Shown here piece after piece: positions 26,427 through 60,283 of a DNA stretch of 64,000 bases. The translations under genes were made by a program, and so were the position numbers. Under the pieces are notes generated by a model. It did not search any database. It was not told the DNA's origin and was given only the letters and a program-made list of their open reading frames with translations. Source of the stretch: Phycisphaeraceae bacterium (GTDB lineage Bacteria; Planctomycetota; Phycisphaerae; Phycisphaerales; UBA1924); assembly GCA_019636655.1 (NCBI GenBank), contig JAHBXB010000001.1, forward strand, positions 310,001 through 374,000. The letters are read 5' to 3'. How positions within the stretch are numbered: the stretch's first letter is position 1; every line of letters starts with the position of its first letter.

Positions 26427-26461
26427 CTCATCGATGCGGGGGCTGTCTACCCGCCAATGAG
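26427..26461 (+). promoter_or_regulatory. Leader hairpin overlapping the ribosome site of the FN3/beta-helix gene
   Basis: Two nested stems can form: CTCAT (26427-26431) with ATGAG (26457-26461), and GCGGG (26436-26440) with CCCGC (26450-26454) around a 9-base loop. The outer stem includes the GAG of the putative Shine-Dalgarno GAGGG that precedes the ATG at 26471, so folding could limit translation. This is seen in the sequence; a regulatory role is inference. The whole leader (26212-26470) holds no gene. Confidence 0.35.
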
Positions 26462-26470
26462 GGCAACGCA

Positions 26471-35386: not shown

Positions 35387-35508
35387 AGGCCCCGCGAAGA
35401 GTCTGTGCGGGCTCCGGGGCGCGCGCAGGGGTCGAATCGCTCGCCGTGCACGCGCCATTGAGCCGATGCGATGGTGCTGGATACAGTCTGTCATTCGCGG
35501 GAGGCCAC

Positions 35509-44193: not shown

Positions 44194-44990
44194 TCGCGCC
44201 GGATCCACTCTCTGAGCTCTCGTTCATCGAGTTGATGGGCTTCACGCTGCACCGGGTCAGCCTCGCCGCAGCGGTCGACCACATCGCGAAGGCCATTGAT
44301 CGCGGTCGGGGCGGATGGGTGCTCACACCCAACCTCGACATCATCCGGCGGATCGTGACCGATCCGTCGTTTGCGGCGCTCGTGAGCGGCACCACGCTCC
44401 GTCTTGCCGATGGCATGCCCCTGGTCTGGGCCAGTCGTCTGAAGGGGACCCCACTCCCCGAGCGGGTCGCGGGATCAGACATGATCTGGTCGCTGAGCCA
44501 GCGCGCGGCGGGGGAGGGGCGATCGGTTTTTCTGCTCGGGGGTAACCCCGGCGCGGCCGATGACGCGGCGAGGATCCTCGCGGAGCGGTACCCGGGACTG
44601 AAGATCGCCGGCACCGAGTGCCCGGCACTTGGATTCGAGAGAGATCCCGACGCCATGGCCGCCCTTCAGGCCCGGCTCCTCGGGGCGCGGCCCGACATCG
44701 TCTACGTCGCCCTCGGGTCGCCAAAGCAGGAACGCCTGATTCAGGTGCTCTGGCCGGCGATGCCGTCGGCCTGGTTTCTTGGCATCGGCATCAGTTTCAG
44801 CTACGTGAGCGGGGACGTGAGGCGGGCACCGATGTGGATGCGCCGGACCGGTCTGGAGTGGGTCTACAGACTCTCACAGGAGCCCGGGCGGTTGGCCAGG
44901 CGGTACCTGGTGGAGGGTGTCCCGTTTGCCGTTCGGCTATTCTGGCGGTCGCTCAAAGAGCGACGCCAAGGCACCCTAGTTTCCCTGTGA
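44190..44990 (+). CDS. WecG/TagA/CpsF-family glycosyltransferase
   Basis: A 266-residue enzyme of the family that adds N-acetylmannosamine(uronic acid) or related sugars to a lipid-linked primer. Diagnostic parts are VLTPNLDIIRRI, LRLADGMPLVWASRL with the catalytic-type Asp, VFLLGGNPGAADDAA and DIVYVALGSPKQERLI. It closes the long plus-strand transferase run that began at 30080. No terminator is visible after it, and 247 bp separate it from the next operon. Confidence 0.92.
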   Translation: MIAPDPLSELSFIELMGFTLHRVSLAAAVDHIAKAIDRGRGGWVLTPNLDIIRRIVTDPSFAALVSGTTLRLADGMPLVWASRLKGTPLPERVAGSDMIWSLSQRAAGEGRSVFLLGGNPGAADDAARILAERYPGLKIAGTECPALGFERDPDAMAALQARLLGARPDIVYVALGSPKQERLIQVLWPAMPSAWFLGIGISFSYVSGDVRRAPMWMRRTGLEWVYRLSQEPGRLARRYLVEGVPFAVRLFWRSLKERRQGTLVSL

Positions 44991-45237
44991 AAGCCCCTAG
45001 TTGTATTCTCCTGAGAAGGTGGAATGCCTGCTTTGGGGGTGGGACTGGACCGGTTATTCGTTCAGGGTGCGCCAGTCTTTGCTCACCTGACTAGGTGGCG
45101 CTTCCACTTCGGCCTGCGCGTTGTATAGTTGCCCCTATCAGTGATCGTCTGCCGGCGAGGCCAGGGAGCGGGACCGGTGATGTGGTGAGTTACCGGAACC
45201 AGGCCGACATTCGTTGTCAGGCGATGGGAAAGGCAGG
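44991..45237 (+). promoter_or_regulatory. Leader/promoter region of the exosortase operon
   Basis: A gene-free stretch of 247 bp. A candidate promoter is TATAGT at 45124-45129 with a weak TTCCAC at 45102-45107 (16-base spacer), which would leave an untranslated leader of about 100 bases. CCGGT and ACCGG near 45175-45198 can pair within that leader. The change of gene content here suggests a fresh transcription start, but no strong consensus promoter is seen. Confidence 0.35.
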
Positions 45238-46200
45238 ATGGCTGTGCGTATCGGTGCTGCGAGTCTTGTGGGGGATTCCTCCGCAACGGAGGCCGGCGGT
45301 CGGATTCGACGCGTACAGAGTGTCGTTCTTTTGGCCGGGACGGTGCGCCATACGGATTTGGGCCGGGCGATCAGCCGCTCGCTGGTTGACCTACCAGTCC
45401 GTTCCGGCGAGACCGTGCTGACCTTCTGGCGTGACCAGGTCAGCCGATTCGGCGAGCGGTACGGCCTTCAGAATACTCCCTTGCGGGTGGTCGTGGATCG
45501 TGCTTCGACGCGCCCGGCGGTTCGCGATGAGGGCGGCCCCTTGGGCGTCGTGATCGAGAACGATGTTGCCGAGTTCCGCGGCACGGGCGGCCTGCTCCGT
45601 GACCTTACAGCCGGGTACGAGCCCGATGACTACATCGTGGTGGCCAATGGTGCACAGGTATTGCTGCGGCCGCTCCCCGATCTCATTGAGTTGCTGGCGC
45701 AGGCCCTTGGGGACATCAACCTCCTGGCCCATGACGACGGCTCGCCCGTGGGGCTGATGCTCGTGTCGTGCAGGGCGCTCAGGGCGATCAAGGACCGTGG
45801 CTTCGTCGACTTCAAGGAGCAGGCGCTGCCCGAACTTGCCAAGTCGTTCGACGTCCGGGTTGTCACCGTCTCCTTCGCCGCGGCCAAGCCGATCCGCAAT
45901 GCCAGCGGGTACCTCACCGCGCTCTGGCACCTGCACCGCAGCGACGAGGGGCTTCCGGACGAGCCGGATCCGTTCCTTGAGGATTGGTTCGATACTTTCG
46001 GCATCATCGAGCCCGGCGCCTCGGTCGATCCGACGGCTCGCATCCACGACTCCGTCGTTCTGGATGGCGCTCGGGTTGGCGCGGGCGCCGTGCTGGTCCG
46101 CTCCGTGGTCTGCCGCGGCGGTGTCGTCCGTCCCGGTGAAGTCGTTACGGACCAAGTGGTAGGGGCGGGTACAAAGCTCCGGCGGCTGGTAGGTCGCTAG
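45238..46200 (+). CDS. Degenerate nucleotidyltransferase-like protein with C-terminal beta-helix
   Basis: A 320-residue protein with the outline of a sugar-nucleotide pyrophosphorylase: VVLLAGTVRHTDLGRAISRS (residues 29-48) sits where the family has the GGxGxRL...PKP signature, EFRGTGGLLRDL matches the GTAGAL stretch, and a short left-handed beta-helix ends the protein (IIEPGASVDPTARIHDSVVL). The second Gly, the Arg/Lys of the signature and the metal-binding Asp (NGAQ at 137-140 in place of NGD) are lost, so it is probably inactive. ATG 45238 is used; TTG 45214 is an alternative. It is the first gene of the exosortase operon. Confidence 0.75.
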   Translation: MAVRIGAASLVGDSSATEAGGRIRRVQSVVLLAGTVRHTDLGRAISRSLVDLPVRSGETVLTFWRDQVSRFGERYGLQNTPLRVVVDRASTRPAVRDEGGPLGVVIENDVAEFRGTGGLLRDLTAGYEPDDYIVVANGAQVLLRPLPDLIELLAQALGDINLLAHDDGSPVGLMLVSCRALRAIKDRGFVDFKEQALPELAKSFDVRVVTVSFAAAKPIRNASGYLTALWHLHRSDEGLPDEPDPFLEDWFDTFGIIEPGASVDPTARIHDSVVLDGARVGAGAVLVRSVVCRGGVVRPGEVVTDQVVGAGTKLRRLVGR

Positions 46201-46209
46201 CAGCACAGC

Positions 46210-47097
46210 ATGAAGCTCAGAGCGGCGGCAAGGAATGGCTGGAGATCGTGGCATCTCGCCCTGCTGCTGGTGTACTGCTCCGCCGGTATCGCGCTCACCT
46301 GGCCGGCATGGCGCGACCTGTTTGAGGTTGCGGTTGAGGACGAGGAATCGAGCCACATCCTGCTCGTTCCACTTGTTGCCCTCTGGCTCGCTTGGGTTCG
46401 GCGTGCACGATTGCGCAATGTTCGTCCAACCGGCACGATGATTGGTCCAGTGCTCGTCGCTGCCGGATGGATCCTGGGGGCCTTCGGTTTCAATAACGCT
46501 TACCAGTCCCTGTGGCAAGCGGGGGCTGTCGTGCTCGTCGCTGGCTGCGCCCTGACGGTTCTCGGGACCGGGGTGCTGTTCCGACTCTTTCCGGCATTCG
46601 CGGTGCTCGTGTTTCTGGTCCCGGTTCCCGGCCAGGTCCGAGAGACGATCGCCCTTCCCCTGCAGACGGCGACCGCGGCGACCACCCAGATGGTGCTGGA
46701 GGTCTTCGGCGTGGCGGTTGAACGCTCGGCCAACCTGATGATCGTGAATGGCCGCGAGGTTGCAGTCGCCGAGGCGTGCAACGGCTTGAGGATGGTGTTC
46801 GCGTTGTTTCTGGTCGGGTACGCGTTCGCCTTCGCCCTGCCGCTTCGCGCTTACGCCCGAGTTCTGGTCATTGCATTCAGCCCGATTGCGGCGACAGGGT
46901 GCAACGTCCTGCGCCTCGTGCCTACCGTTCTGCTGTACGCGTATGCCCCGCAGTATGCGGACCGCTTCCACGCGGTCAGCGGCTGGCTGATGTTGCCGGT
47001 CGCCTTCGGGCTGCTTCTCGGGCTGATCAGCCTGCTGCGCTGGGCACTAATACCGGTGTCCAGGTACACCCTGGCTTACCAGCCGACGACGGCCTAG
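46210..47097 (+). CDS. Exosortase (archaeo/exosortase family transpeptidase)
   Basis: Exosortases are inner-membrane cysteine transpeptidases that cut proteins at a C-terminal PEP-CTERM-like signal and pass them to another anchor. This 295-residue protein has about eight hydrophobic segments and the complete catalytic triad: Cys190 in VAEACNGLRMVFALFLVGYA, Arg235 in NVLRLV and His254 in FHAVSGWLML. The following epsI gene, the Wzz protein and the sugar-phosphate transferase make up the usual exosortase/EPS neighbourhood. It resembles the single-gene planctomycetal type. Its likely substrate lies at 56476-56949. Confidence 0.95.
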   Translation: MKLRAAARNGWRSWHLALLLVYCSAGIALTWPAWRDLFEVAVEDEESSHILLVPLVALWLAWVRRARLRNVRPTGTMIGPVLVAAGWILGAFGFNNAYQSLWQAGAVVLVAGCALTVLGTGVLFRLFPAFAVLVFLVPVPGQVRETIALPLQTATAATTQMVLEVFGVAVERSANLMIVNGREVAVAEACNGLRMVFALFLVGYAFAFALPLRAYARVLVIAFSPIAATGCNVLRLVPTVLLYAYAPQYADRFHAVSGWLMLPVAFGLLLGLISLLRWALIPVSRYTLAYQPTTA

Positions 47098-47119
47098 AGC
47101 CGCCAGAAAGGGGGACCGT

Positions 47120-47797
47120 GTGGCGGGCAATCTGGCGAAGATCCTGACCGCTGTTCTCCTCCTCGGCGTCATGATCGACGTCAGCGGTCGTCCGCCGGCG
47201 GTGGATGCCGACCCCTACCACACCCAAGTCAGGGCCGCGGTCGCCCGCATTCCCACACGTATCGGCGTCTGGAGCGGCGTCGACGAGCCGGTTCCACCCG
47301 CCGCGAGGGCCCTGCTTCGCCCCAACGCCATCTTCTCTCGCGCGTATTCCGACCCGGTCACGGGCCAGACTGCCACCCTAGTTCTTGTCCAGTGCCGGGA
47401 TGGCCGAGGCATGATGGGCCACTACCCGCCCGTGTGTTATCCGGCCCATGGGTGGGAGGAGGGTGAGCCCGAGATTCCGGTCGACGTTCAGGTGGCTGGT
47501 CAGACGATCCCGATGACTCGCTATTCGTATGTGCAGGGAGGGTTCAACCGCCGAAAAACAAAGGTGATCTATGGGTTCTTTGTCATCCCGCGTACGGGAT
47601 TGGCACGGGAGATGGACGGTGTGAGAAGGGCAGCCTCTGATTACCGAACGCGGGGACTTGGCGCTGCCCAGGTGCAGGTCATCCTCGGCGACGGGCTGTC
47701 ACGGGCCGAGGAGGCCGCGATGGTCAGGGAGCTGCTGGCCCCTGTGGTTCCCGTCATCGACCTGATCCGATCGGGCGAGGTGGAGTCGACGCGTTGA
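47120..47797 (+). CDS. Exosortase-associated EpsI-family protein
   Basis: A 225-residue protein of the EpsI (DUF3485) family, a constant partner of exosortases that is sometimes fused to them. One N-terminal hydrophobic segment (AKILTAVLLLGVMIDVSG) anchors it; the periplasmic part carries the family motif HYPPVCYPAHGW (101-112) with Cys106, and ends with VQVILGDGLSRAEEAAMVRE. GTG 47120 follows the exosortase stop by 22 bp. Its biochemical role is not known. Confidence 0.9.
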   Translation: MAGNLAKILTAVLLLGVMIDVSGRPPAVDADPYHTQVRAAVARIPTRIGVWSGVDEPVPPAARALLRPNAIFSRAYSDPVTGQTATLVLVQCRDGRGMMGHYPPVCYPAHGWEEGEPEIPVDVQVAGQTIPMTRYSYVQGGFNRRKTKVIYGFFVIPRTGLAREMDGVRRAASDYRTRGLGAAQVQVILGDGLSRAEEAAMVRELLAPVVPVIDLIRSGEVESTR

Positions 47798-50187
47798 GCA
47801 CGAGCATCGAGGTTGTTGATCGCCGCCGCGATGGCGAACTGGCCCCGGCCGGCGGCTTCATGCCGCCCGCCGCGCCAGCCGGCGGCGGCGCCAACGGCCT
47901 GGCGATGATCCATCGGCTGCTGCGGGGCCGCTACCTCGCCGCGCTCCTGCTCGCGATGGCCGGCGCTGTCGCCGGCGCCTCGGCCGGTTGGATGCGGGGG
48001 AGCGAGCTCTACACGAGTGAGGGGCAGATCTACGTCCAGACGGAGCTGACGCCGCTGCTCTCCCAGATTCCGGAGAACCGATCCAGCAATCCACGCAGCT
48101 TCGTGGAGATCCAGATCAAGCGGCTCAAGTCCCCGGCGGTCATCGAAGAGGTCGTCGATGGCGATGGTTGGAAGTCGCTCAACCGCCCGGGTGGGCCCGA
48201 GGGGCAGCGGTGGATCAAGCGGATGCTGTTTGTGAACTCGGATATCCGAGTGCCTGAACTCATCAACGTGGTCTTCATGGACCCCAACCCGCGGGCCGCG
48301 CAGCTTGTGGTTGAGCAGGTCATCCGGGCGTACGAATCTCAGTATTCCGACAAGCAACGGATCGATGACGCCAAGAAGATCGAGGAGCTCAAGGCCCTCC
48401 GCGAGGAGAAGTCGCAGAAGATCGAGGACCTCAACAGCCACATGCTCGCCGAGGCGATGGAGTTCGGAACCGATGACCTGACGGCCCGCAAGGAGATCAC
48501 CCAGAAGCGGGTCCGGGACACCGAGGAGGAGCTCGACCGGATCGACCGCGAGCTCGCCAATCGTGCCGCCGCCGCCGAGCGAAACCCCGGCGACAGCGAG
48601 AACGCCAACGACCGCTCGCCGAGCGAGATCGCCGCGGTCGACAACCAGATGCGGCAGTACCTCCAGGATCGCATCACCCTCGCCGGAGAGATCGACAGCC
48701 TCCGGCTCAGGCTCGGCGAGAATCACCCGGATCTCCGCTCCCGGCGGGACCGGCTTGAGCTCATCGAAGACAACATCAAGAACTACGCCAAGATCTGGAA
48801 CGACCGGGCCCGTGCCGGGGTCGCCGCGCCGGCCAACCCGGCCGGCGCGGTCGTCCCGCTTCTGGAGAGCACCAGCCAGCTCCAGGCGAAGCGAGCGTCG
48901 AACGCGAAGCTGCTCGAGGCCTATCGCGCCGAAGACCAGCGTGTGGGCAACGCCAAGCTCCGAGTCGATCCGCTGCGAGACCAGCTCGCCTACGAGCGGG
49001 GCCAGTACAAGGAAATCAACCAGCGCATCGACCAGCTCACGATCGAGTCGCGCAGCCTGAACAACCTCACCGGCAAAATCCAGATTGAGAGCTACGGCTC
49101 GCTCCCGGACCAGCCCAAGGACAGCCGCAAGAAGTGGGCCGCGGTCGGCCTCGTGGCCGGTGGGGGGTTTCCCATCGCCGTCATCCTGCTCATCGGGCTC
49201 CTCGATCGCCGCTACCGCTATTCCGATGAGGCCAGCGAGGCTAACGCCAGCGTCCCGTTGCTCGGCATCCTCCCTCACCTTCCCAGGCACCTGGGCAGCC
49301 CGGAGGACGCCGCCGCGGCCGCTCACTGCGTCCACCGCATCCGCTCCCTGCTGCAACTCGCCGGCCCGGCGAGAAAGACGTTCGCCGTGACCAGCTCGGT
49401 CGCGGGCGACGGTAAGACCAGCCTCGCGCTTTCGCTGGGCCTCTCGTATGCCGCGGCCGGTTCTCGCACGTTGCTGATCGATTTCGATCTCATCGGGGCC
49501 GGGCTTACCTCTAGCCTTTCGGCCAAAACCGACCACGGCATCGGTGACGTGATCAGCGGCGCAGCGCCGGACGCCGCCGCTCGTATCGTCCAAACCCGCA
49601 CCGAGAACCTCTGGCTCCTTCCCTGCGCGAGAGGCGACGACCGGCACGCCAGCCGCCTCTCTGCGGCCCTCGTTCGGCGCACGATCGATTCTGTTCGTGA
49701 CGCCTACGACGTCGTCATCATTGATACCGGCCCGATCCTCGGCAGCCTGGAGGCGGCGTTCGTCAGCGCCGTCGTCGACGGTGTGATCCTTGTCGTCGGA
49801 CGCGGCCGCCACCGCTCTCACGTCGAGCGGGCGCTGGCCCAGCTCAACTCCGTGGGGGCCAACCTCATGGGCCTGGTGTTCAACCGCGCCTCGTCCTTCG
49901 ACTTCCGCAAGTCCGTGACGAGCGGCTCGATGCGGTCGGTCGGCGAGCACCACGTCCCCGCGGGCCCCGACCACCCCGCCGCGAAGCGTGACAAGGAGCT
50001 CCGCCGTCTCAGCCCTGTCGCCCAGACGGTCGTCATCGATGTGCAGACCGTGCCCGACGACCCCAACGGGACGCCGCATGCCAACGGAGCGCCGAACGGG
50101 GCCTCGGGAAACGGCCCCTCCGCCCCTCCGCCCCCAGCCCCCCCCGCCCCGGCCGGCAGCGCGGGCGGAGGCTCACGCGATCGGTAG
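47794..50187 (+). CDS. Wzz-type chain-length protein fused to BY-kinase-like ATPase
   Basis: A 797-residue co-polymerase. TM1 lies at about residues 47-66, a Wzz periplasmic domain with coiled coil runs from about 70 to 445, and TM2 with the Pro-rich SLPDQPKD motif follows (436-470). The cytoplasmic ATPase has Walker A SSVAGDGKTS (534-543, Lys541), Walker A' LIDFDL (561-566) and Walker B VVIIDTGP (about 640-647). The C-terminal tail contains no tyrosine, so the usual autophosphorylation cluster is absent; it ends in a Pro/Gly/Ala stretch. It starts at TTG 47794, overlapping the epsI stop (TTGA). Confidence 0.9.
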   Translation: MSTSIEVVDRRRDGELAPAGGFMPPAAPAGGGANGLAMIHRLLRGRYLAALLLAMAGAVAGASAGWMRGSELYTSEGQIYVQTELTPLLSQIPENRSSNPRSFVEIQIKRLKSPAVIEEVVDGDGWKSLNRPGGPEGQRWIKRMLFVNSDIRVPELINVVFMDPNPRAAQLVVEQVIRAYESQYSDKQRIDDAKKIEELKALREEKSQKIEDLNSHMLAEAMEFGTDDLTARKEITQKRVRDTEEELDRIDRELANRAAAAERNPGDSENANDRSPSEIAAVDNQMRQYLQDRITLAGEIDSLRLRLGENHPDLRSRRDRLELIEDNIKNYAKIWNDRARAGVAAPANPAGAVVPLLESTSQLQAKRASNAKLLEAYRAEDQRVGNAKLRVDPLRDQLAYERGQYKEINQRIDQLTIESRSLNNLTGKIQIESYGSLPDQPKDSRKKWAAVGLVAGGGFPIAVILLIGLLDRRYRYSDEASEANASVPLLGILPHLPRHLGSPEDAAAAAHCVHRIRSLLQLAGPARKTFAVTSSVAGDGKTSLALSLGLSYAAAGSRTLLIDFDLIGAGLTSSLSAKTDHGIGDVISGAAPDAAARIVQTRTENLWLLPCARGDDRHASRLSAALVRRTIDSVRDAYDVVIIDTGPILGSLEAAFVSAVVDGVILVVGRGRHRSHVERALAQLNSVGANLMGLVFNRASSFDFRKSVTSGSMRSVGEHHVPAGPDHPAAKRDKELRRLSPVAQTVVIDVQTVPDDPNGTPHANGAPNGASGNGPSAPPPPAPPAPAGSAGGGSRDR

Positions 50188-50196
50188 AGTTGAACC

Positions 50197-51612
50197 ATGG
50201 TCGGACTCGCCGGAACAGGCAGGGAGCACACGGTCTGGGGTCTCGACGCGGTCGCGCTCCAGGCCCGCTTCTGGGCGTCGCGCGGCGTGCAGGTGGTCCG
50301 CCTCGGGGAACCGTCGCAGATCGTCGATCACGCCGAGCTCTTCCTCCTGACGAGCCAATCCACGCTTGCGTTCTTTGACCTTCCCGCGCTCCTCGAGTGG
50401 CTCTCTTGGACCGAGCCCGACCTCACATTCCTCCGCCTCCACGACACCAGCGACCAGGGCTACCGCGAGGTCCTCGCCACTGGGAAAGACGGTCGATTCG
50501 CGGGGTTCCGTCGCGTGTATCGCGGCGGGCCGCGCGAGGTTGCCAGGGTCGCCGTGACAACTGACGCCCGCCTGGCTCAACTCTGGCAAGGCTCGCCGGA
50601 TCCGCTGTCCGGATGGAAGCTCCTCCGCCGGATGGTGCGGCGCGGCAACCGCGCTGCGACCAGTGTTGATGCACGTGTCTACGACTCGCGCGAGCCCGAG
50701 GATGTCGCGCGGTACATCCGCGACCTGGTGCAGGTCTGGCGACGCCCCGATGCGACGATCCCCAGGGTGCGGCGGATCGCCAGCGGTGTGTGGGCCGACG
50801 AGGGCGTCAGCGTCCCCTCCGGCGTCAGCATGAGCGGGCCATTGTGGATCGGCGCCGGCCGCACGCTCGAACCCGGCGCTTCCGCCGTCGGCCCGGCGGT
50901 GATGTGGGATCGGCCCGAAGCCCGGCCGCCGATCGATGAGATCAAGTGGCTCGAACTCGAGGCCCTCAACCCGCCGGACCAGCCCCGGCCGAAGTACAAA
51001 GGCCGCCCGGCGCGGGCCGTCAAGCGGGTGTTCGATCTTGCGTTCGCGTCGCTGGCGCTGCTCGCCTCCCTCCCGCTCTACCCGCTCATTGCGCTGGCGA
51101 TCTACCTGGAAGACGGGCGTCCGATTTTCTTCGGCCACCTGCGAGAGTCCGTGGGCGGCCGCGAGTTCAAGTGCCTGAAGTTCCGATCGATGCGGCGCGA
51201 TGCGGAGCACATCAAGGCCATGCTCAAGGAGAAGAACCAGGCCGACGGGCCTCAGTTCTACATGGAGAACGATCCGCGTCTTACAAGGGTCGGACGCTTC
51301 CTCCGTAAGACGCAGCTCGACGAGATCCCGCAGTTTATTAACGTGCTCAAGGGTGACATGGCCATCGTCGGGCCGCGGCCGAGCCCGTTCGACGAGAACC
51401 AGTTCTGTCCCGCGTGGCGCGAAGCCAGGCTGAGCGTGCGCCCTGGCGTTACCGGCCTCTGGCAGATCCGCCGTACCCGCGCCGCCGGGTCCGATTTCCA
51501 GGAGTGGATCAAGTACGACATCGAGTACGTCGAGAAGCAGTCGCTCGCCCTGGACCTGTGGATCATCTGGCGGACGATCGTCCTCGTGTTCCGCGGGGTG
51601 GCGAGGCAATGA
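50197..51612 (+). CDS. Initiating sugar-phosphate transferase fused to degenerate nucleotidyltransferase module
   Basis: A 471-residue protein. Residues 273-465 are a polyprenyl-phosphate glycosyl-1-phosphate transferase (WcaJ/PglC-type, Bac_transf): KRVFDLAFASLALLAS, EFKCLKFRSM, TRVGRFLRKTQLDEIPQF and GDMAIVGPRPSPFDE, which starts glycan assembly on undecaprenyl phosphate. Only one membrane segment precedes it. Residues 1-250 are not the usual membrane region but a soluble module like a decayed nucleotidyltransferase followed by a short beta-helix (WADEGVSVPSGVSMSGPLWI), the same layout as the 45238 gene. It ends in an ATGA overlap with the TPR gene. Confidence 0.88.
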   Translation: MVGLAGTGREHTVWGLDAVALQARFWASRGVQVVRLGEPSQIVDHAELFLLTSQSTLAFFDLPALLEWLSWTEPDLTFLRLHDTSDQGYREVLATGKDGRFAGFRRVYRGGPREVARVAVTTDARLAQLWQGSPDPLSGWKLLRRMVRRGNRAATSVDARVYDSREPEDVARYIRDLVQVWRRPDATIPRVRRIASGVWADEGVSVPSGVSMSGPLWIGAGRTLEPGASAVGPAVMWDRPEARPPIDEIKWLELEALNPPDQPRPKYKGRPARAVKRVFDLAFASLALLASLPLYPLIALAIYLEDGRPIFFGHLRESVGGREFKCLKFRSMRRDAEHIKAMLKEKNQADGPQFYMENDPRLTRVGRFLRKTQLDEIPQFINVLKGDMAIVGPRPSPFDENQFCPAWREARLSVRPGVTGLWQIRRTRAAGSDFQEWIKYDIEYVEKQSLALDLWIIWRTIVLVFRGVARQ

Positions 51613-54600
51613 GGCTCAAACCCAAGACGGTCCGCCGGCTGCTGCTCGGTGCCGGTGTGATCGCCGTCGTCATCTCCTCAACCGTGTGCCTCGTCGTCGT
51701 CCGCAAGTGGCAGCACCGCCGTCAGGGCGACCGCCTCCGTGCTCAGGGTCTGACGGCGTACGCGGAGCACCGCTACACAGATGCGATGAACACCCTCGGG
51801 CCCTACCTCCGCGGGCTCACGTCCTACGCCGGCGACGGAGAGTCCCTCCTGGCCTACGCCCGTTGCCGCGAGATGGTCCCTCTCCCGCGGGACGCCCACT
51901 TGCTGGAAGCCGTGACGGTCTACGAGACCTACCTGCGGGGCCACCCGGCCGACCGCTCTGCCTCCCTTCATCTGCTGTCGCTCCTCATGAGCACAGGGCA
52001 GTTCAACGACGCCGCCGAGTACGCGGCAACCCTCCGGCCAGGGGACCTCGCCGCGGCCACGCCCGAGGATCTCCCGGTGCTCAGGCGCGAGGCGGCTGCG
52101 CTCCTCACACTCCGGCGCTTCGACACCGGATTCGCCCGGGTCGTCGACCGCTGGATCGAGTTGGAGCCGGAGTCACTCAAGGCCCACCTGATGTACTCCG
52201 CCTACCTCGTGGCGTCGGGCCAACCGGCGCAGGCCAAGGCCCGCGCCGACCGACTGCTGGAAGAGCACCCCGGTGACGTCCGATTCCGCCTTCTCTCGCT
52301 CCTGTCGCCCGGCTCGCACGACCGCCCGCTGGTGGATGAACTCTGTGCTCTCGCCGGGCTCGACCCTCGCTCTGCCGCGCGTACCGGCGAGGCGAACTAC
52401 CCCGACGAGTTCTACGTCGAGCGACTCGTCGAACTCTTTGACACGCTCGGCCGGCACGACCATGCCGCAGCCGTCCTGGCCGACGCTGCGACCCGGATCG
52501 ATGATCCGCAAATCCGGTTAGCCTCGTTGCGACGAGCGTGGCAGTCCGGCCAGCCCACCGAGGTCAACGACCGTCTCGCGGCCATGGGTGAGCCCGACCC
52601 CGATGCCTCCGCCGAGTGGCTTGGGATCAGAGGGCTGTGCCTGCTGACGCTGGACGACCCCGGCGCTGCATCGGCGATCGCTTCGGCGCTCCGCGCGAAG
52701 GCCGACATGGCCTCGAGCGCGTGGGCAAGAGCGATCGAGTCGTGGATGGCGACGCCGCAGCGCCGATCACTCCCGCTTGAATCCATGCGTCTTGCACGCC
52801 GGGATCTCCCCGGGTCACCCGAGGTCGCGTTCCTGTACGGCGAGATGCTGGCCGAGAACGGTCTATCCGAACAGGCCAGAGTCCAATGGCGCTCGGCCGC
52901 GATTTCCCCGCGTGCACCCGGTTGGTCCCGTCCGTGGATCCGGATCAGCGAGAGCCTTCTCGCCGACGGCCGACCCGATGAAGCGCTCGATGCGGCGGTG
53001 TCGGCGCTCGCGGCCTCGCCCGGCAGTCTGCCGGCACTTTCCGCCTGGGTCCGCGCCCAGGCTGCCCAGGTCATGGCCGGGCACCCAGGAGCGCCCGATG
53101 CCGACACCGTTCTAACGAGGATCGAATCGGCCGTCCGTCAGGCCAGCGCCGGCGACAGATCCCAGAGGGATCCACTCCTCGCCGACCTTCTTCCCATGAG
53201 ATCGGTCCTGCTCGCCGCGATCGGGCGTCGGGACGAGGCAATCCGCGCTGTTACCGATGCGATGGTGTCCTACCAGTCCAGCCGCCACATCCTGGAGGGA
53301 CTCGCCGAGGCGAGCCTTCGCGCAGGTTTCGGCGTTGAGATTGAGTGCCTCGACGCCGCCGAATCGATGGGTGGCCCGACTGCTCACAGTTCCGCTCTTC
53401 GAGCCGCCGCGTACCGGAACGCTGGTAATCCGGAACGCGGTCTGACCGTTCTGGCGGCAGGTGCTTCCGCGGCCAATCCTGCCGACCGTGTCGAATGGGA
53501 TATGGCCGCGGCCAAGTACTTGGAAACGATCGATCCTGAACAGGCAGCGCAGCGCTGGCTTGCCGTGGCGGATGCTCACAACGAGGACGTTCTCGTTCAG
53601 GTCCTCGCGTCTCGCTCTGCGGCCGTGGTTGCCCGGCCTTCCGCCCTGTCCCGTGTTGCGCAGCGGCTTGGGTCGATGCGGGGGCCGTCAGCCGACAGCC
53701 CAAGCGAGATTCTCCGCCTGGTTGAGGCCGATCAGGTGCTGCAGGGCGCCGTCACGCCGTCATCGCGAGACAGGGCGGTCTCCATCCTTCAGGGTCTGGT
53801 CACGGAATCTCCAAGGGATATGGAGCCGCGCGAGCGGCTCATCTCGGTCCTTTTGCTGAGCGATTCGGCAAACGGCGTTGTCCCGCACACTCTCGACGCC
53901 GTCGAGCAGCTCCGCGCCGCCGCCGCGGTGGCCCCCGCCCCAGCGCCCTACCTCCTCCGTGCGGCGGTGCTGCTCCAACGCGAACGGGATTTCGAGGCCG
54001 CGCGCCAAGAGCTCGTCGCCATCCTGTCCCTGCCCGCTCTCGATCCCGGCTCGCGGCGGCACGCCGTCGAGCTGCTGGTGCAGCAAGGCGATTGGCTGAC
54101 AGCCCTCCCCGCGATGGAATCCATGGTTGGGCCGGACGGGGAGGCGCCGGGTGAACTGCAGCTGATGCTCGCCAATGCCTACGCCGCCATCGGTCGCGAA
54201 CACGATGCGAGAGCAGCATACCGGCGCGCCGCGGCCAGCCCGCCACGCAGCCCGACGCAGATCGTGTCCCTGGCGGCCGCCTTGTACGATCGTGGCGACA
54301 CCGACCTCGCCGCGCGTCTGCTGTCGTGCCTTTCTTCCCTCGATGGGATCTCCCTCGCGCGGCAGCGACTCGCTGTGGGCGAGTTCCACGCCGCCGTTGA
54401 AGAGCCAATAGAGGCCGTTGCCGCCGCGGAAGCAGCGCTGGCGCTTGAGCCGGGCTTGGCTGATGCCGAGCACCTTATCGCCCGGTCACATGCCGCGATG
54501 GGCGACCGCCAAGCCTCGTTGCTCGCCGCCGACCGCGCAATCTCCGCGGGCCACCCGGACGCATCCCTCTCCGTCTTCCGCGAGCAGGTACGACTCACAT

Positions 54601-56066
54601 TGGGCGGCGATCAGGCCACACTGGCGCTACTCGCCGACGCCATGGCCGCCTCCCCCGCCCACGCAGCGGATGTCGCCGCGGCGCGGGCCCTGGAGTTGCT
54701 CCGTGTCAACGGCCGGTCGATGGAGACCGAGGCGCTGCTGCAGGTGGCTCGGGACAACCCGGCTTCGCTGTTCGCCCAGATCACGGTGCTGGAACGGCTC
54801 ATCTCTCGCCCGGCCGATGCCGAAGCCGCCCTCCGTCTTGGTCGGACGGCGATGGCGGCATTCCCGCAAGACGCCGAAGTCGCGAGGCTCACGGTGACAG
54901 CTGCAAGGCTCGCGGCCGAGTGGAACCTGATGTATACGGTCGCCCAGCAGTGGCGCCATCGGGCTCTAGGACGCTCCGTCGAGGCCGATGCCGCGGCCGC
55001 CCAGGCGCTCTTGCAACTCGGTCGACCATCGGACGCGCTGAGCCTTCTTCAGTCTCGTCTTGATCAGTCACCCCGCCTCGCATCGATGTCCGCCGGGCTC
55101 GAACTCCTATCGCTTGCGGCCAGGGCGATGGTCCGAGTTGGTGATGAGGCACGCGCCTTTGCCCTGCTGGCGCCACTCCTCAACGCACCCGGTCCGATCC
55201 GAGAGGCGACCTGGCCGCAACTTGCGTCCCGAGAGGTCCGCCCACCGTCCCGCGCCGCCGCATGGCTCAGCCGACTTGAGTCCTCGGTCCCCGCCGATCT
55301 GACCGACGAGCGACTTGACGTCGCCGCGGCATGGCTGGCGCTCGCCTCCAGGTCACAGGATATCGCGATTGAGTGCATCAACCGCGCCGAAGCGATCATC
55401 GAACCGGCTCTGAAAGACGACGGCCTTTCCGCGGCGTACGCCCACGAACTGTGGGCCGATTGCCAGCGGCGCCGCGGCCGTGCCGACGCCTCGGCCCGCA
55501 GCCTTGCCCGCGCCGCCGACCTCTACGAAGCCCACATCAGCCTCTCGTCGGATGCCACTCGACCGCGATTGCTCCTGGCCGCTGTCCGTGAACGGCAGGG
55601 CGACAGGAACGCCGCGATCGCCCTCTACGAGGGGCTCCTCGCGGATCCCGCTGTACCGGTCGCGTTCCTACCGATCATCGAGAACAACCTCGCGTTTGCC
55701 CTCCTCGCCGCGGGCAGCTCTCAGCAGATTGATCGCGCTCGGTCGCTCGCATCGCGGGCGGCTTTGCAGACCCGCTCCCCATGGGCGCTCGATACCCTCG
55801 CCCGCGCCGAAGCCATGGCAGGCCGTCGCAATGCCGCGATCGACGCCTACCGCGCTGCGCTGTCGGCATCCCCGGCCTTTCCGTCGTCGCTGATTGGCCT
55901 TGCCGATCTCCTGAGCACAGGATCGCGCGAGGAGCGGCGAGAAGCCACGGACCTGCTCGCGCGACTGCCCCAGGACTCGCCTTGGCAGTGGCAGACTCCC
56001 ACGCCCGCCGATCTCGCCGAGCAGCTCGAACTCGTGCGAGCACGGCTGAGGTCTGATAACCATTGA
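51609..56066 (+). CDS. Giant TPR-repeat membrane protein of the exosortase operon
   Basis: A 1485-residue protein with one N-terminal membrane segment (about residues 9-31, preceded by RLKPKTVRR) and a very long extracytoplasmic part made of helical TPR-like repeats, recognised by recurring patterns such as GLTAYAEHRYTDAMNTLGPYL, AYLVASGQPAQAKARADRLL and AEAALALEPGLADAEHLIAR. Exosortase/EPS loci often carry a TPR protein (PrsT in PEP-CTERM systems), so a scaffold role in glycan assembly or protein transfer is likely; this one is unusually long. It starts inside the stop of the sugar transferase (ATGA). Confidence 0.85.
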   Translation: MRLKPKTVRRLLLGAGVIAVVISSTVCLVVVRKWQHRRQGDRLRAQGLTAYAEHRYTDAMNTLGPYLRGLTSYAGDGESLLAYARCREMVPLPRDAHLLEAVTVYETYLRGHPADRSASLHLLSLLMSTGQFNDAAEYAATLRPGDLAAATPEDLPVLRREAAALLTLRRFDTGFARVVDRWIELEPESLKAHLMYSAYLVASGQPAQAKARADRLLEEHPGDVRFRLLSLLSPGSHDRPLVDELCALAGLDPRSAARTGEANYPDEFYVERLVELFDTLGRHDHAAAVLADAATRIDDPQIRLASLRRAWQSGQPTEVNDRLAAMGEPDPDASAEWLGIRGLCLLTLDDPGAASAIASALRAKADMASSAWARAIESWMATPQRRSLPLESMRLARRDLPGSPEVAFLYGEMLAENGLSEQARVQWRSAAISPRAPGWSRPWIRISESLLADGRPDEALDAAVSALAASPGSLPALSAWVRAQAAQVMAGHPGAPDADTVLTRIESAVRQASAGDRSQRDPLLADLLPMRSVLLAAIGRRDEAIRAVTDAMVSYQSSRHILEGLAEASLRAGFGVEIECLDAAESMGGPTAHSSALRAAAYRNAGNPERGLTVLAAGASAANPADRVEWDMAAAKYLETIDPEQAAQRWLAVADAHNEDVLVQVLASRSAAVVARPSALSRVAQRLGSMRGPSADSPSEILRLVEADQVLQGAVTPSSRDRAVSILQGLVTESPRDMEPRERLISVLLLSDSANGVVPHTLDAVEQLRAAAAVAPAPAPYLLRAAVLLQRERDFEAARQELVAILSLPALDPGSRRHAVELLVQQGDWLTALPAMESMVGPDGEAPGELQLMLANAYAAIGREHDARAAYRRAAASPPRSPTQIVSLAAALYDRGDTDLAARLLSCLSSLDGISLARQRLAVGEFHAAVEEPIEAVAAAEAALALEPGLADAEHLIARSHAAMGDRQASLLAADRAISAGHPDASLSVFREQVRLTLGGDQATLALLADAMAASPAHAADVAAARALELLRVNGRSMETEALLQVARDNPASLFAQITVLERLISRPADAEAALRLGRTAMAAFPQDAEVARLTVTAARLAAEWNLMYTVAQQWRHRALGRSVEADAAAAQALLQLGRPSDALSLLQSRLDQSPRLASMSAGLELLSLAARAMVRVGDEARAFALLAPLLNAPGPIREATWPQLASREVRPPSRAAAWLSRLESSVPADLTDERLDVAAAWLALASRSQDIAIECINRAEAIIEPALKDDGLSAAYAHELWADCQRRRGRADASARSLARAADLYEAHISLSSDATRPRLLLAAVRERQGDRNAAIALYEGLLADPAVPVAFLPIIENNLAFALLAAGSSQQIDRARSLASRAALQTRSPWALDTLARAEAMAGRRNAAIDAYRAALSASPAFPSSLIGLADLLSTGSREERREATDLLARLPQDSPWQWQTPTPADLAEQLELVRARLRSDNH

Positions 56067-56475
56067 CATATCGCAAGTATTGAGACGACAAGAGCTTGCC
56101 GAACCAGAGGTGGCTCGTCTCAGATCATGCCAGAGCTACATGCGATTCCTAGGGTGACTCGCAGTGACACGTCGTGCTCTGATCGCGCTTCTCATTCCGA
56201 GTCCATCGGCCGAAACCCCGTGTTGGGAACCGATCAATCCCTGCCGGAATGTCTTGAATCTGCTTGTGCCGGCGGGTATTGTGGGCCTTGGCTGAGTGCG
56301 GTGGCCTGCGGGCCGCGGCAGGACTCGCCGGCCGGGTATGGCACCCGTTGTTTTGCTCCATCCGCGAGAGAGGTACTCGCGGCTCGGGTTCGGGCGCGCC
56401 GTGCGGGGTCCGGACACTTTCGAGGGGAGCATCGCACAACTCGTGCGGGTGGCGGGGAACGAAGGGAGGAATGCC
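56067..56475 (+). other. 409-bp gene-free leader before the putative exosortase substrate
   Basis: No coding region could be supported here. An imperfect stem, GAGACGA (56081-56087) with TCGTCTC (56114-56120), lies 15 bp after the TPR stop but has no T-run, so it is not a standard terminator. A perfect 7-bp hairpin CCGCGAG / CTCGCGG (56362-56368 with 56376-56382) lies about 100 bp before the next start. GGGAGGA (56464-56470) is the ribosome site of the following gene. A promoter for the small gene is likely within the stretch but could not be pinned down. Confidence 0.45.
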
Positions 56476-56949
56476 ATGTCGTACGGTCTTGTACCGTCGA
56501 TTGTCGCCTCCGGGGTGCTGGTTTCGTCCGCGATAGCCGAACCTGTATCGCTGCGCGACGTTGGGGGTGTACCTGGGGGTGCACCAAGGGGCGGTGGGTC
56601 GACTCAAACTGATACTGCCAACCGTCCGGGCGAACCTGCGCCATTGGTTGCCGCCGCCCCGCTGGTCGGTCCGACCCAGTGGGCCGATGCATTCGGCGTC
56701 ACACGGGTCTCTCGCAGCGCCTCCGGCCTCGCTGGCGAGGAGGCCTATGTCGACCTGATGACCAGCCTCGTGGCTGCTGATGCGACCTCGGTCCACCCCT
56801 CCGCTTCGATGATCCCCGGAGTTCACGTGGCCGATCCGGTTGTGGTCGTGCCGCTCCCCCCGACCGTTTACGCGGGCGCCGCGACGCTCGGCGGAGCCAT
56901 GGCCGTCACTGCCTGGCGCCGTCGCCGAACGCACCACCGCACGGTCTGA
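56476..56949 (+). CDS. Small secreted protein with PEP-CTERM-like (VPLPP) sorting signal
   Basis: A 157-residue exported protein and probable exosortase substrate. A signal peptide spans residues 4-21 (GLVPSIVASGVLVSSAIA). The middle is Gly/Ala/Pro-rich and unlike any family I know. The C-terminus has the three-part sorting signal: VPLPP (125-129), a hydrophobic helix TVYAGAATLGGAMAVTAW (130-147) and RRRR (148-151). This resembles the VPLP variants common in planctomycetes. GGGAGGA five bases upstream supports ATG 56476. It is the only protein in the window with such a signal. Confidence 0.82.
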   Translation: MSYGLVPSIVASGVLVSSAIAEPVSLRDVGGVPGGAPRGGGSTQTDTANRPGEPAPLVAAAPLVGPTQWADAFGVTRVSRSASGLAGEEAYVDLMTSLVAADATSVHPSASMIPGVHVADPVVVVPLPPTVYAGAATLGGAMAVTAWRRRRTHHRTV

Positions 56950-56972
56950 GAAGGGAATTTGGTTCGCAGCGA

Positions 56973-58022
56973 TTACGCGCTGCCCCGACCGTATTGACGG
57001 TCGTAGTAGTCTCGATACGCGCCGCTCTTCACCCGATGCCACCATTCGGGGTTGTCGACATACCACCGCACGGTGCTCTCCAGCGCCTCCGGCCACGCCG
57101 ACCGGCTCGGCTTCCAGCCCAGTTTCGCCGCGATTTTGGACGCATCGATCGCGTAGCGAAGGTCATGCCCGGGCCGGTCCGCCACAGGCTTGATCATCTC
57201 CTTCCCCTTGCCCATCGCGTCGAGGATCGCGTGCGTCAGTTCCAGGTTGCTCCGTTCGTTGTTCCCGCCGACGTTGTACACCTCGCCCGGGATTCCTCGC
57301 TCCAGCACTGCCAGTACCGCCTCGCAGTGGTCGTCCACGTGCAGCCAGTCGCGCACGTTCCGGCCGTCGCCGTACAGGGGCACCTGCTTGCCTTCCAGCA
57401 GATTGGTCACGAACAGCGGGATCACCTTTTCGGGGAACTGGTACGGTCCGAAGTTGTTCGAGCACCGGGTGATCATCAGCGGCATGTGGAACGTGTGGAA
57501 GTACGCCCGGACCAGGCAGTCCCCGGCCGCCTTGCTCGCCGCGTACGGGCTGTTGGGCTGCAGCGGCGTCTCCTCGGTGAACTTCAGCTCCGGGTTCCCC
57601 AGCGGAAGCGACCCGTACACCTCATCGGTGCTCACGTACACGAACCGCCCGACGCCCTTGCCGCCTTTGGCCTTCCTCGCTGCGTCCAGCAACACCTGCG
57701 TCCCGCCCACGTTGCTCGCGATGAAGGGACCCGAGTCGAGGATCGACCGGTCCACGTGGCTCTCCGCGGCCATGTGCACCACCGCGTCGCACTCCTCCAT
57801 CAGCGGAGCAACCGCCGCCGTGTCGCGGATGTCGGCGTGCACAAAGCGGTAGTTCGGGTCCTTCTCCACATCGGCAAGGTTCTCGAGGTTGCCCGAGTAC
57901 GTCAGCACGTCGAGGTTGGTCACCCGCACGCCCGGCCGGTGCCGCAGCAGGAACTTCACGAAGTTGGAGCCGATGAACCCCGCGCCGCCGGTGAGAAGGA
58001 TGTGAGTGGGAGTGGGGGGCAT
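56973..58022 (-). CDS. rmlB: dTDP-glucose 4,6-dehydratase
   Basis: RmlB converts dTDP-glucose to dTDP-4-keto-6-deoxyglucose, the second step to dTDP-L-rhamnose. The 349-residue protein has LLTGGAGFIGSNFVKFLL (NAD site), VVHMAAESHVDRSI, VYVSTDEVYGSL with the catalytic Thr-Asp-Glu, YAASKAAGD (YxxxK) and ITRCSNNFGPYQFPEK. It is the last gene of the minus-strand rml operon, 15 bp after rmlD. Its 4-keto product could also feed other deoxysugars. Confidence 0.96.
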   Translation of the reverse strand: MPPTPTHILLTGGAGFIGSNFVKFLLRHRPGVRVTNLDVLTYSGNLENLADVEKDPNYRFVHADIRDTAAVAPLMEECDAVVHMAAESHVDRSILDSGPFIASNVGGTQVLLDAARKAKGGKGVGRFVYVSTDEVYGSLPLGNPELKFTEETPLQPNSPYAASKAAGDCLVRAYFHTFHMPLMITRCSNNFGPYQFPEKVIPLFVTNLLEGKQVPLYGDGRNVRDWLHVDDHCEAVLAVLERGIPGEVYNVGGNNERSNLELTHAILDAMGKGKEMIKPVADRPGHDLRYAIDASKIAAKLGWKPSRSAWPEALESTVRWYVDNPEWWHRVKSGAYRDYYDRQYGRGSA

Positions 58023-58037
58023 GGCGCTTTCCTTGGG

Positions 58038-58931
58038 CTACGCGAGCCGACCCATCACGTCGGCCAGATTGTCCTTCCAGTCCGGCATGCGACCCACCAG
58101 ACGCTCTGCGCGTGAAAGGTCGAGCACGCTGTACGCGGGCCGTCGCGCGGGACGAGGATACTCCGCCGATGTACACGGAGCGACTTCGCAGCGGTGAGCC
58201 AAGCCGGCGAGACGCACGATCTCGGTCGCAAACTCGAACCAGGTGCACTCACCCCCATCCGTGACGTGGAATGTGCCGCGAGCCTCTCGAGCGATGAGAC
58301 TGAGCGCGGTACTCGCGAGGTGGTCGCACGATGTAGGCCGGCCTCGCTGGTCGTTCACGACGCGAAGGCAAGGCTTGTTCTTCGCCAGATCCACGATCGT
58401 CCGAACGAAGTTCTTGCCCGACGTCGCATACAGCCAGCTTGTACGGATGAGCAGGTACTCGCAGCCCGAGGCCTCGATCAGTTCCTCTCCAACCACCTTG
58501 GTCCGGCCATAGGCGTTGATGGGTGAGCGAGGGTGGTCAACGGGATAGGGTGTGTCGGAGTCGCCATCGAAGACGTAGTCCGTGCTGAAGTGGACGAGCA
58601 GTGCTCCCTCGTCGCGACAAACCTTCGCGAGAGCTCCGACGCCCTCGCCGTTGACGCGGCGTGCCGCGGCTTCATTCGCCTCCGCGCCGTCCACATCGGT
58701 CCAGGCAGCACAGTTGATATAGGTGCGGTATCCGCCGACCGCGAGGCGTCGGATGCTCTCGGGGTTCGCCAGGTCGACGGAACTCCGGTCTGGTACATCG
58801 ACTCGAACACCGTGCAACAGATCGGCCTGCTCAAGCAGGCCGTGCCACGACCAACCCAACATGCCGGTGAACCCAATGAGGACCACTGGCTGTCGCGCCC
58901 GTGGCCCGTTGTTGACCAGACGCGGAATCAT
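58038..58931 (-). CDS. rmlD: dTDP-4-dehydrorhamnose reductase RmlD
   Basis: RmlD reduces dTDP-4-keto-L-rhamnose to dTDP-L-rhamnose. Motifs: VVLIGFTGMLGWSW (cofactor site, with GxxGxxG changed to GFTGMLG), VHFSTDYVFDGDSDTPY, YGRTKVVGEE (YxxxK) and LIRTSWLYATSGKNF. ATG 58931 overlaps the rmlC stop as ATGA, which decides this start over a GTG at 58949. It lies between rmlC and rmlB. Confidence 0.93.
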   Translation of the reverse strand: MIPRLVNNGPRARQPVVLIGFTGMLGWSWHGLLEQADLLHGVRVDVPDRSSVDLANPESIRRLAVGGYRTYINCAAWTDVDGAEANEAAARRVNGEGVGALAKVCRDEGALLVHFSTDYVFDGDSDTPYPVDHPRSPINAYGRTKVVGEELIEASGCEYLLIRTSWLYATSGKNFVRTIVDLAKNKPCLRVVNDQRGRPTSCDHLASTALSLIAREARGTFHVTDGGECTWFEFATEIVRLAGLAHRCEVAPCTSAEYPRPARRPAYSVLDLSRAERLVGRMPDWKDNLADVMGRLA

Positions 58932-59425
58932 CCGTGGCGAACCCCCCACGGAAACCCCTCGATACTGTCGTGCGCCCGCCGATCCTCATCAGGGCTCGCC
59001 GCGTTGTACGCGTGCGTCACGTAGTACAGCAACCCCGCCGGTGTATCGCCCACTGTTGCCGCCCCGTGCCACAGCGGCGGCGGGATGATCATCACCCCGG
59101 GCCGCTTCTCGCCGATCACCCCCAGCCAGGCCGTGCGGTCCTCCTCCCGGTACACCCCGACCTTGATGTGGCCCTGAAGGCAGATCCAGAAGTCCGTCTG
59201 AAGCGAGTGCCGGTGCCACGCCTTCACCACGCCGGGGTACTGCACCGAGTAGTTCACCTGCCCCTGCGGAGTCATCACCCCCTGCAACTGGTTCATCATC
59301 GACCAGCCCCGGTCGTCCGCAAACAGCGGCTGCGGCACGAACACCGGTTCGCGCCCTTCCCTCGCCGCCTCGAACGCCGCGGTCACACCGCCGTTCACGA
59401 TCCGTGGAAACTTCGGGGTTAGCAC
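58928..59425 (-). CDS. rmlC: dTDP-4-dehydrorhamnose 3,5-epimerase-like cupin
   Basis: A 165-residue cupin of the RmlC family, which epimerises C-3 and C-5 of dTDP-4-keto-6-deoxyglucose. It keeps PLFADDRGWSMM, a conserved histidine in GVVKAWHRHSLQTDFW, and VMIIPPPLWHGAATVG, but the sequence is more divergent and slightly shorter than standard RmlC (about 180), and KLV.V.RG...D.R is replaced by WICLQGHIKVGVYREE. Its position between rmlA and rmlD supports the epimerase role; a related isomerase is the alternative. Confidence 0.82.
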   Translation of the reverse strand: MLTPKFPRIVNGGVTAAFEAAREGREPVFVPQPLFADDRGWSMMNQLQGVMTPQGQVNYSVQYPGVVKAWHRHSLQTDFWICLQGHIKVGVYREEDRTAWLGVIGEKRPGVMIIPPPLWHGAATVGDTPAGLLYYVTHAYNAASPDEDRRAHDSIEGFPWGVRHG

Positions 59426-59452
59426 GCTGGTCCTCTCGCCGCAAATCCGCGG

Positions 59453-60283
59453 CTACGCACGCCCGGCAACCTTTTTCCGGGCTGGCGTGCCCGCCGCCCC
59501 TTTGCCCGCCGCGGCGCCGCCATCACGGGCCGCGCCGATCCCATCAACATGGTTCGCGCCGCTCTGCGCGATGAGCGTGCTCGCCCGGTGCAGGCTCTCG
59601 AACGTCCCGGCATCCGTCCACCACCCCTCCAAAATCTCGTGCGTCAGATCGCCGCGTTCCAGGTAGTAGTTGTTGACGTCGGTGATCTCCAGCTCGCCCC
59701 GGCCGCTCGGCTTGAGCCCCCCGCATACCTTGAACACATCCGCATCGTAGAAGTAGATCCCGGTCACCGCGTACCGGCTCGGCGGGCTCTGCGGCTTCTC
59801 GATGACCTCCACGATCCGGCTGCCCGGGTCGTCATTCTCGAACTTCACCACGCCAAACCGCTCAGGATCCGGCACTTCCTTCAGCAGGATCTTGGCGCCC
59901 GTCCGTTGGGTAAAGAAGTCCCCCGCCGCCTTGCGGATGTTCTTCTCGATGACGTTGTCGCCGAGCACCACGCAGATCTTGTCGCCATCGGCAAACTCCT
60001 CGGCGAGTTTGAGGGCATCGGCGATCCCTCCTTCGCCCTCCTGGTACGCGTACTCCAGGTGGCTCACGCCAAGGTGCTTCCCGTTCTTCAGCAGCTTGAG
60101 GAAGTCGCCCGCGTGCTCGCCGCCGGTCACGATCAGGATGTCGCGGATCCCCGCGTTGAGCAGGCACTCGATCGGGTAATAGATCATCGGCCGGTCGTAC
60201 ACCGGCAGCAGGTGCTTGTTGGTCACCAGCGTCAGCGGCCTGAGCCGCGACCCCAGTCCACCAGCGAGGATGATGCCTTTCAT
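59453..60283 (-). CDS. rmlA: Glucose-1-phosphate thymidylyltransferase RmlA
   Basis: RmlA makes dTDP-glucose from dTTP and glucose-1-phosphate. The signature IILAGGLGSRLRPLT with NKHLLPVYDRPMIYYPI, then VVLGDNVIEKNI and WTDAGTFESLHRAS are typical of the short (RmlA/RfbA) type. The last 35 residues are Ala/Gly/Lys-rich and lie outside the fold. It is followed by rmlC, rmlD and rmlB on the same strand; 157 bp separate it from the upstream SDR gene. Confidence 0.94.
   Translation of the reverse strand: MKGIILAGGLGSRLRPLTLVTNKHLLPVYDRPMIYYPIECLLNAGIRDILIVTGGEHAGDFLKLLKNGKHLGVSHLEYAYQEGEGGIADALKLAEEFADGDKICVVLGDNVIEKNIRKAAGDFFTQRTGAKILLKEVPDPERFGVVKFENDDPGSRIVEVIEKPQSPPSRYAVTGIYFYDADVFKVCGGLKPSGRGELEITDVNNYYLERGDLTHEILEGWWTDAGTFESLHRASTLIAQSGANHVDGIGAARDGGAAAGKGAAGTPARKKVAGRA

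Follow-up and report, generated by a model that had tools for sequence, protein, structure and literature searches.

The exosortase block and the small protein beside it

The stretch analysed here, a window of 64,000 nucleotides (positions 310,001 to 374,000 of contig JAHBXB010000001.1) from the 3.66 Mb, 8-contig genome of a Phycisphaeraceae bacterium (assembly GCA_019636655.1), carries an exosortase gene within a block of six close-set plus-strand genes (45214-56066, from the open reading frame list and profile libraries). The block is followed by the gene of a small protein, predicted to be a substrate of the exosortase, with a C-terminal tail built around a proline-leucine-proline (PLP) motif, i.e.:

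45214..46200, plus strand: hexapeptide protein with a left-handed beta-helix-like C-terminus (weak hexapeptide matches, under the cut-offs; start codon uncertain)
46210..47097, plus strand: exosortase, 295 aa, with C190, R235 and H254 (PF09721, E 3.1e-44; TIGR02602 above cut-off)
47120..47797, plus strand: EpsI-like protein (DUF3485), 225 aa (PF11984, 55.2 bits, cut-off 26.1)
47794..50187, plus strand: chain-length regulator fused to a tyrosine-kinase-like ATPase, 797 aa (AAA_31, 41.9 bits, cut-off 27)
50197..51612, plus strand: initiating sugar-phosphate transferase, 471 aa (PF02397, Bac_transf, E 2.1e-61 at residues 276-465; 207 bits, cut-off 27)
51606..56066, plus strand: giant tetratricopeptide repeat (TPR) protein, 1486 aa, with PrsT-like stretches and an ATG start (TPR_14, 53.7 bits, cut-off 23.5)
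56476..56949, plus strand: small exported protein, 157 aa, predicted adjacent substrate (open reading frame; tail by leave-one-out profile)
56476..56538, plus strand: its signal peptide, about residues 1-21 (...SAIA/EP), judged by eye; n-region without a basic residue
56848..56946, plus strand: its sorting tail, VPLPP-helix-RRRR (sequence and tail profile)

A sequence-only reading of this region had proposed a compact exosortase system dedicated to a single, adjacent target. The frames it named, i.e. exosortase, EpsI, chain-length ATPase, transferase and giant TPR protein, are all real and lie in one tight run, separated in this order by a gap of 22 nt, an overlap of 4 nt, a gap of 9 nt and an overlap of 7 nt. 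The conserved block is headed by the hexapeptide gene, which stops 9 nt ahead of the exosortase and has a counterpart in 25 of the 30 relatives' loci. The small protein gene (157 codons, GGGAGGA ahead of the ATG) is indeed the next gene downstream, but it stands outside the overlapping run, since its start lies 409 nt beyond the TPR stop. A scan of 44900-57100 limited to sigma-70-like promoters found none.

The window enzyme belongs to the exosortase family by PF09721 (151.7 bits, cut-off 25.7) and TIGR02602 (114.7 bits, cut-off 105.55), and the catalytic residues Cys190, Arg235 and His254 are located exactly where they had been placed before, being kept in 30, 30 and 29 of the 31 rows of its lineage, respectively. 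The enzyme is predicted to cleave tailed substrates. Its AlphaFold2 model has a mean pLDDT (predicted local distance difference test) of 90.3; no solved structure resembled it in fold at E 0.001 or better (Foldseek), and searching solved structures by sequence gave a single chance match (E 0.52). A weaker Foldseek match of the model was 2ddz, a Pyrococcus protein of unknown function (39 columns, 28 % identity, root mean square deviation 1.3, E 0.72).

The XrtA/PEP-CTERM system (EpsH, EpsI, PrsT; TIGR03109, TIGR02595) shares with the window the exosortase core, EpsI, chain-length protein, initiating transferase and TPR protein, as well as tails made of a motif, a helix and arginines; in Aquincola, the PEP-CTERM gene pepA is reported to adjoin the TPR gene prsT (PMC9850573). 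However, the window enzyme scores 121.5 bits against the TIGR03109 cut-off of 208, and the window tail is of the PLP type, with a longer helix. The XrtD/VPLPA-CTERM system (TIGR04152, TIGR03370) has a named tail class that likewise reads P-L-P, but the enzyme reaches only 96.8 bits against the TIGR04152 cut-off of 400, and the model spans 486 positions, whereas EpsI is a separate gene here; the remaining 17 rows of set A2 match TIGR04152 as well. Being below both cut-offs, the enzyme was rejected as a member of XrtA or XrtD. The NCBIfam model names pair XrtC with VPDSG and XrtD with VPLPA, and sorting by distinct tails is already known in kind. Two curated cut-offs place the enzyme among the exosortases, yet it passes no subtype cut-off and the tail passes no tail model; it is best read as an unnamed exosortase subtype with a cognate tail.

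That the tail of the small protein is not a chance match follows from a leave-one-out profile, built on 29 PLP tails of other genomes, which singles out this protein among the 996 window frames of at least 30 codons (E 2.7e-8, runner-up 0.18) and thereby recovers the VPLPP-helix-RRRR tail read earlier on the product of the next gene. The window tail has no match to TIGR02595 (cut-off 16 bits) up to E 10, is unlisted for TIGR03370 (cut-off 25.35 bits) at E 10, and reaches 13.5 bits with Pfam PF07589, under its cut-off of 20.7. Among 30 PLP tails, six show some match with TIGR03370 (best E 7.2e-6). Because neither the tail nor the whole protein matches any NCBIfam model, the protein would probably be labelled hypothetical in annotation. 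No homologue of its body rose above noise in 60 relatives (best other E 0.005).

Tail classes and exosortases in the genome and its relatives

Across the whole genome, TIGR02595 gives 36 matches at E 10 or better, 25 of them above cut-off. We inspected 39 tails with two prolines around a middle residue (PxP), of which two have L in the middle and 37 (all 36 TIGR02595 matches and one found via TIGR03370) have A, S, T, G or V. The middle residue is A in 25, S in six, T in two, G in one and V in one of 35 non-PLP tails, the single V-type tail reading TPVPSP (PVP or PSP), and two further tails are PAP. The helix, taken as the stretch between the motif and the first R/K pair, also differs, with a median of 17 in 29 PLP tails (28 from other genomes; one of the 30 gave no value) vs 14 in 35 of this genome's non-PLP tails (p 4.5e-11). 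The second PLP tail belongs to a protein on contig C2:

C2:936345-936791 (L192:6346-6792), minus strand: second PLP-tailed protein, 137 aa from its ATG (PLP tail profile)

The profile match lies at C2:936351-936440 and the protein ends RDQLVVVPLPAPAALTGIGLVGVILLRRRVLR. Although absent from the profile, this tail scores 37.2 bits, compared with 26.4 bits for the top non-PLP tail of the genome; beyond the tail, the protein has little likeness to the small protein of the window. Its gene directly adjoins a 272-aa frame tailed QDQLVVVPSP.

Regarding the single target proposed by the sequence-only reading, the genome has two PLP tails, i.e. that of the window neighbour and that of the C2 protein, and not the exactly one cognate-tailed target by which a dedicated system would be recognized; a strictly single target was rejected on account of the C2 protein. 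The whole-genome count yields a narrow PLP set of two beside at least 37 other PxP-helix-RRRR proteins, and the many further carriers that had been named as an argument against a dedicated pair appear only when PAP and PLP are pooled as one class. 'Single target' is nearly, but not strictly, correct, and relatives often have several targets. The dedicated adjacent pair therefore survives in its adjacency and its narrow target set, but not in its restriction to one target.

Two exosortase genes are found in the genome by PF09721, i.e. that of the window and one on contig C6:

C6:102616-104487: second exosortase, 623-aa frame (PF09721, 149 bits)

The C6 enzyme is 27 % identical to the window enzyme. 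Both are of the PF09721 family, and by eye a polysaccharide export gene precedes the exosortase in the C6 locus (C6:100758-111427, L047:5759-16428), with a TPR-like protein of 1517 aa and a chain-length ATPase following. In contrast to the window, the EpsI-like part (by eye) forms the C-terminal end of the 623-aa frame, and this lineage has no nearby PLP gene in 20 loci. In the tree of placed rows, 31 window-type and 20 C6-type rows part with 100/100 support, and near-fixed differences between the window lineage and the other one are N191/S, L199/F, L201/A and T239/L, the first three lying at most 11 residues from the active-site cysteine. By score, 28 of 61 genomes carry the window lineage, 27 of which, i.e. 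those besides the window's own, were checked in the tree. In all 61, one or more further or weaker exosortase matches occur, most of which are C6-like by score; the exosortases of G038 and G048 fall outside both lineages, with unsure placement. The closest relatives of the window exosortase sit in records mostly named Phycisphaerales or other Planctomycetota, and within Phycisphaerales the lineage is patchy.

The presence of the lineage goes along with that of the tail. Of the 28 genomes with the lineage, 24 have a best PLP-profile score of at least 33 bits, vs three of 32 without it (p 1.5e-9; three of 33 when G048, excluded for having no tail match, is included), and within the window's own family the counts are 15/15 vs 1/22. 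Carriers that had given no tail to the profile reached this score in ten of 14 cases (p 5e-5), as did 26 of 35 further carriers hand-picked out of 80 loci found by a separate route (p 7e-8 vs the same 3/32). At least one PLP tail was seen in 25 of the 28 carriers, from which more tails were read than from the lineage-free set. In 28 of the 31 lineage-free genomes in which the best tail could be read (G030 yielded no locus), it was PAP, PTP, PSP or PEP. The top tail of G044 is PLP yet scores below 33 bits, and G013, G049 and G060 have PLP tails further down their lists.

Conserved adjacency of enzyme and tailed target, which the sequence-only reading had made a point of comparison, is borne out in relatives: 14 of 25 window-type loci have a PLP tail next to the block, vs none of 20 control loci of the C6 type (Fisher 3.9e-5). 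The 25 comprise the window and 24 relatives' loci with readable flanks (13 with PLP), six of 30 relatives' loci having been dropped for ending at contig ends (L080, L082, L085, L098, L101 and L107); with nothing dropped, 14 of the 30 have a PLP tail, not counting the window, that of L082 lying upstream. The flanks covered about 5 kb upstream and 15 kb downstream at window-type loci and about 10 kb each way at control loci (two shorter), and tails in both sets were found by one pattern scan, with spurious frames removed by eye. Four of the control loci have a PxP tail (three PAP, one PTP). Relatives have up to five adjacent PLP targets, plus scattered ones. A second collection of 80 loci includes 23 with a PLP tail within the retrieved flank, which mostly stops before the target position; four of the 23 repeat counted genomes, and a few (L287 and L303) have atypical ends. 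Of nine downstream stretches, six have PLP, two of these six coming from loci counted in the 23; another has just VPEP, and the last two have no tail.

Adjacent targets in L291, L293, L299, L300, L301, L305, L309, L313 and L314 have in common a QDxL stretch directly before PLP, which the small protein of the window lacks. L265, L280, L287, L303 and L304 have, like the window, short PLP proteins close to the block end (frames of 121-169 codons); by eye, these proteins are mutually dissimilar.

Proposed specificity, targets and product of the window exosortase

What the computation shows is the gene complement, the catalytic residues, a separate lineage, the class of the tail, conserved adjacency and co-occurrence at the genome level, and we consider it likely that a second exosortase system with its own tail code exists beside a general PEP-CTERM system in this cell. 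The window enzyme probably recognizes its own tail signal, while the usual set of dozens of surface proteins probably falls to the other enzyme, each exosortase presumably being restricted to its own tail class. The code would read V/I-P-L-P, followed by a longer helix and then arginines, with two predicted targets in this genome, i.e. the 157-aa neighbour and the 137-aa C2 protein. The small protein would be exported by Sec, and its tail would keep it in the inner membrane, whereupon the exosortase, with Cys190 as the nucleophile together with Arg235 and His254, would cut at or beside the PLP motif, and the cut protein may either be released or handed to an acceptor. The 37 other tails, which differ in motif (mostly P-A-P) and have a shorter helix, most probably belong to the C6 exosortase and would be served by it. 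As a guess, the lineage-specific residues N191, L199, L201 and T239 might read the tail.

Several observations weigh against such a separate code. No PLP tail is found nearby in 11 of the 25 window-type loci. One of these is that of G028, which at 60 % identity comes closest among the 61 genomes and has its best PLP tail on a different contig. Next to window-type loci, some genes have PEP, PSP, PTP, PAP or PVP tails, alone or together with PLP, e.g. IPEP in L081 and L108, VPAP in L082, VPEP in L091, VPSP in L103 and IPSP in L104. The genomes are related (four of the 13 PLP-bearing relatives' loci come from one genus), and therefore the Fisher values overstate independence. Moreover, the 30 profile tails were selected for PLP, and the 33-bit line was drawn once the scores were seen, the lineage-free G015 reaching 32.9 bits. 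Among the carriers, no PLP was seen in the inspected tails of G053 and G057 (five each) or G027 (PMP, PTP), and high scores come with a best tail other than PLP in G013 (PTP), G009 and G027 (PMP) and G060 (PAP). Finally, three lineage-free genomes score high, i.e. G019, which is 82 % complete, G059, which has four genus mates with the lineage and in which 1.2 kb separate the tail from the end of the contig, and G038, the exosortase of which is one of the two with unsure placement.

Alternatively, there could be one general system, both exosortases processing all PxP tails, with PLP a mere drift within the PEP-CTERM class and adjacency reflecting co-expression with the cluster rather than specificity. 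One architecture is indeed common to all tails, non-PLP tails lie near some window-type loci, and similar target ends occur with either motif, as in the QDQLVVVPSP of the C2 neighbour and the QDQLFIVPLP of other genomes. Nevertheless, we regard such a general system as unlikely, considering that high PLP-profile scores are rare without the lineage and usual with it, that helix lengths differ between the classes and that PLP is missing from the control loci. At the other extreme, the neighbour could be the sole target, forming a strict pair with the enzyme, and the second PLP protein could be used by the other system or be unexpressed. Enzyme-target adjacency agrees with this, and the position of the second PLP gene beside a PSP-tailed gene suggests the company of the other system. 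However, the C2 tail outscores every non-PLP tail of the genome despite being outside the profile, and relatives have several PLP targets, making a strict pair very improbable.

A further proposal, raised by the sequence-only reading and compatible with a second system with its own tail code, concerns the product: the exosortase might join the small protein to the operon's polysaccharide or a lipid-linked sugar. A similar transferase is found in 23 of the 30 relatives' loci (three of the remaining seven stop short of its position), lipid anchoring has been reported for substrates of the archaeosortase ArtA (PMC7157517), and attachment of PEP-CTERM proteins to the outer membrane or a glycan has been discussed as a possibility (PMC12188702). 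On the other hand, exosortases are described as co-located with glycan genes in general (PMC1569441), by eye also at the C6 locus, and this co-location therefore does not single out the window system, leaving glycan joining doubtful in our view. It is tempting to go one step further and speculate that PxP middle residue and helix length define mutually exclusive channels, the window's coupling tiny, fast-evolving proteins, here those of 157 and 137 aa, the former an orphan, to the lipid-linked glycan that the operon's transferase starts, as a protein end-piece of this polysaccharide, which would be a long shot.

An enzyme lying next to its target is also known from the rhombosortase/GlyGly-CTERM system, described as a 'dedicated system' in which both are adjacent when targets are few (PMC3237569, Haft and Varghese 2011). 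There, however, the enzyme family is unrelated to exosortases, and genomes with several targets are described as usually not keeping them adjacent, whereas here relatives often keep up to five. Among the listed titles and abstract openings on exosortases, PEP-CTERM and planctomycetes, which mostly exclude subscription papers, none names the present pairing. On substrate choice and the fate of substrate ends, the exosortase literature consulted gives deletion phenotypes and exoproteome changes and no defined product. Two exosortases, two tail classes and two predicted targets for one enzyme make this genome a small test bed for specificity, and N191, L199 and L201 together with the PLP/PAP contrast are defined candidates for swaps.

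Companion genes and other features of the window

Some gene products of the block match further models below cut-off. The EpsI-like protein reaches 30.8 bits with TIGR02914 (cut-off 42.8), and the giant TPR protein 53.3 bits with TIGR02917 (cut-off 312). Of the 'Wzz-ATPase' of the sequence-only reading, the ATPase is confirmed by AAA_31 above cut-off, but Pfam finds no Wzz domain in the 47794-50187 product, the N-terminal half of which matches a chain-length model at sub-cut-off level only; this product scores 102.9 bits with TIGR01007 (under 108.05) and 43.2 bits with TIGR03007 (under 278.85). The N-terminal approximately 270 aa of the initiating transferase (50197-51000) are without a Pfam match, and the idea that the hexapeptide protein (45214) is a duplicate of this half was rejected, the sequences being dissimilar.

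Downstream, four minus-strand genes at 56973-60283, convergent with the small protein gene, were read by eye as putative dTDP-rhamnose synthesis genes (RmlB, D, C and A). Elsewhere in the window, the glycan cluster includes a GINT1_N domain protein (38339-39895, 124.8 bits), the model being named after glucosamine inositolphosphorylceramide transferase, while a 2OG-Fe(II) oxygenase domain protein lies amid glycosyltransferases (35002-36324), and a frame of 1229 aa at 26273-29962 gives fibronectin III as well as right-handed beta-helix matches.

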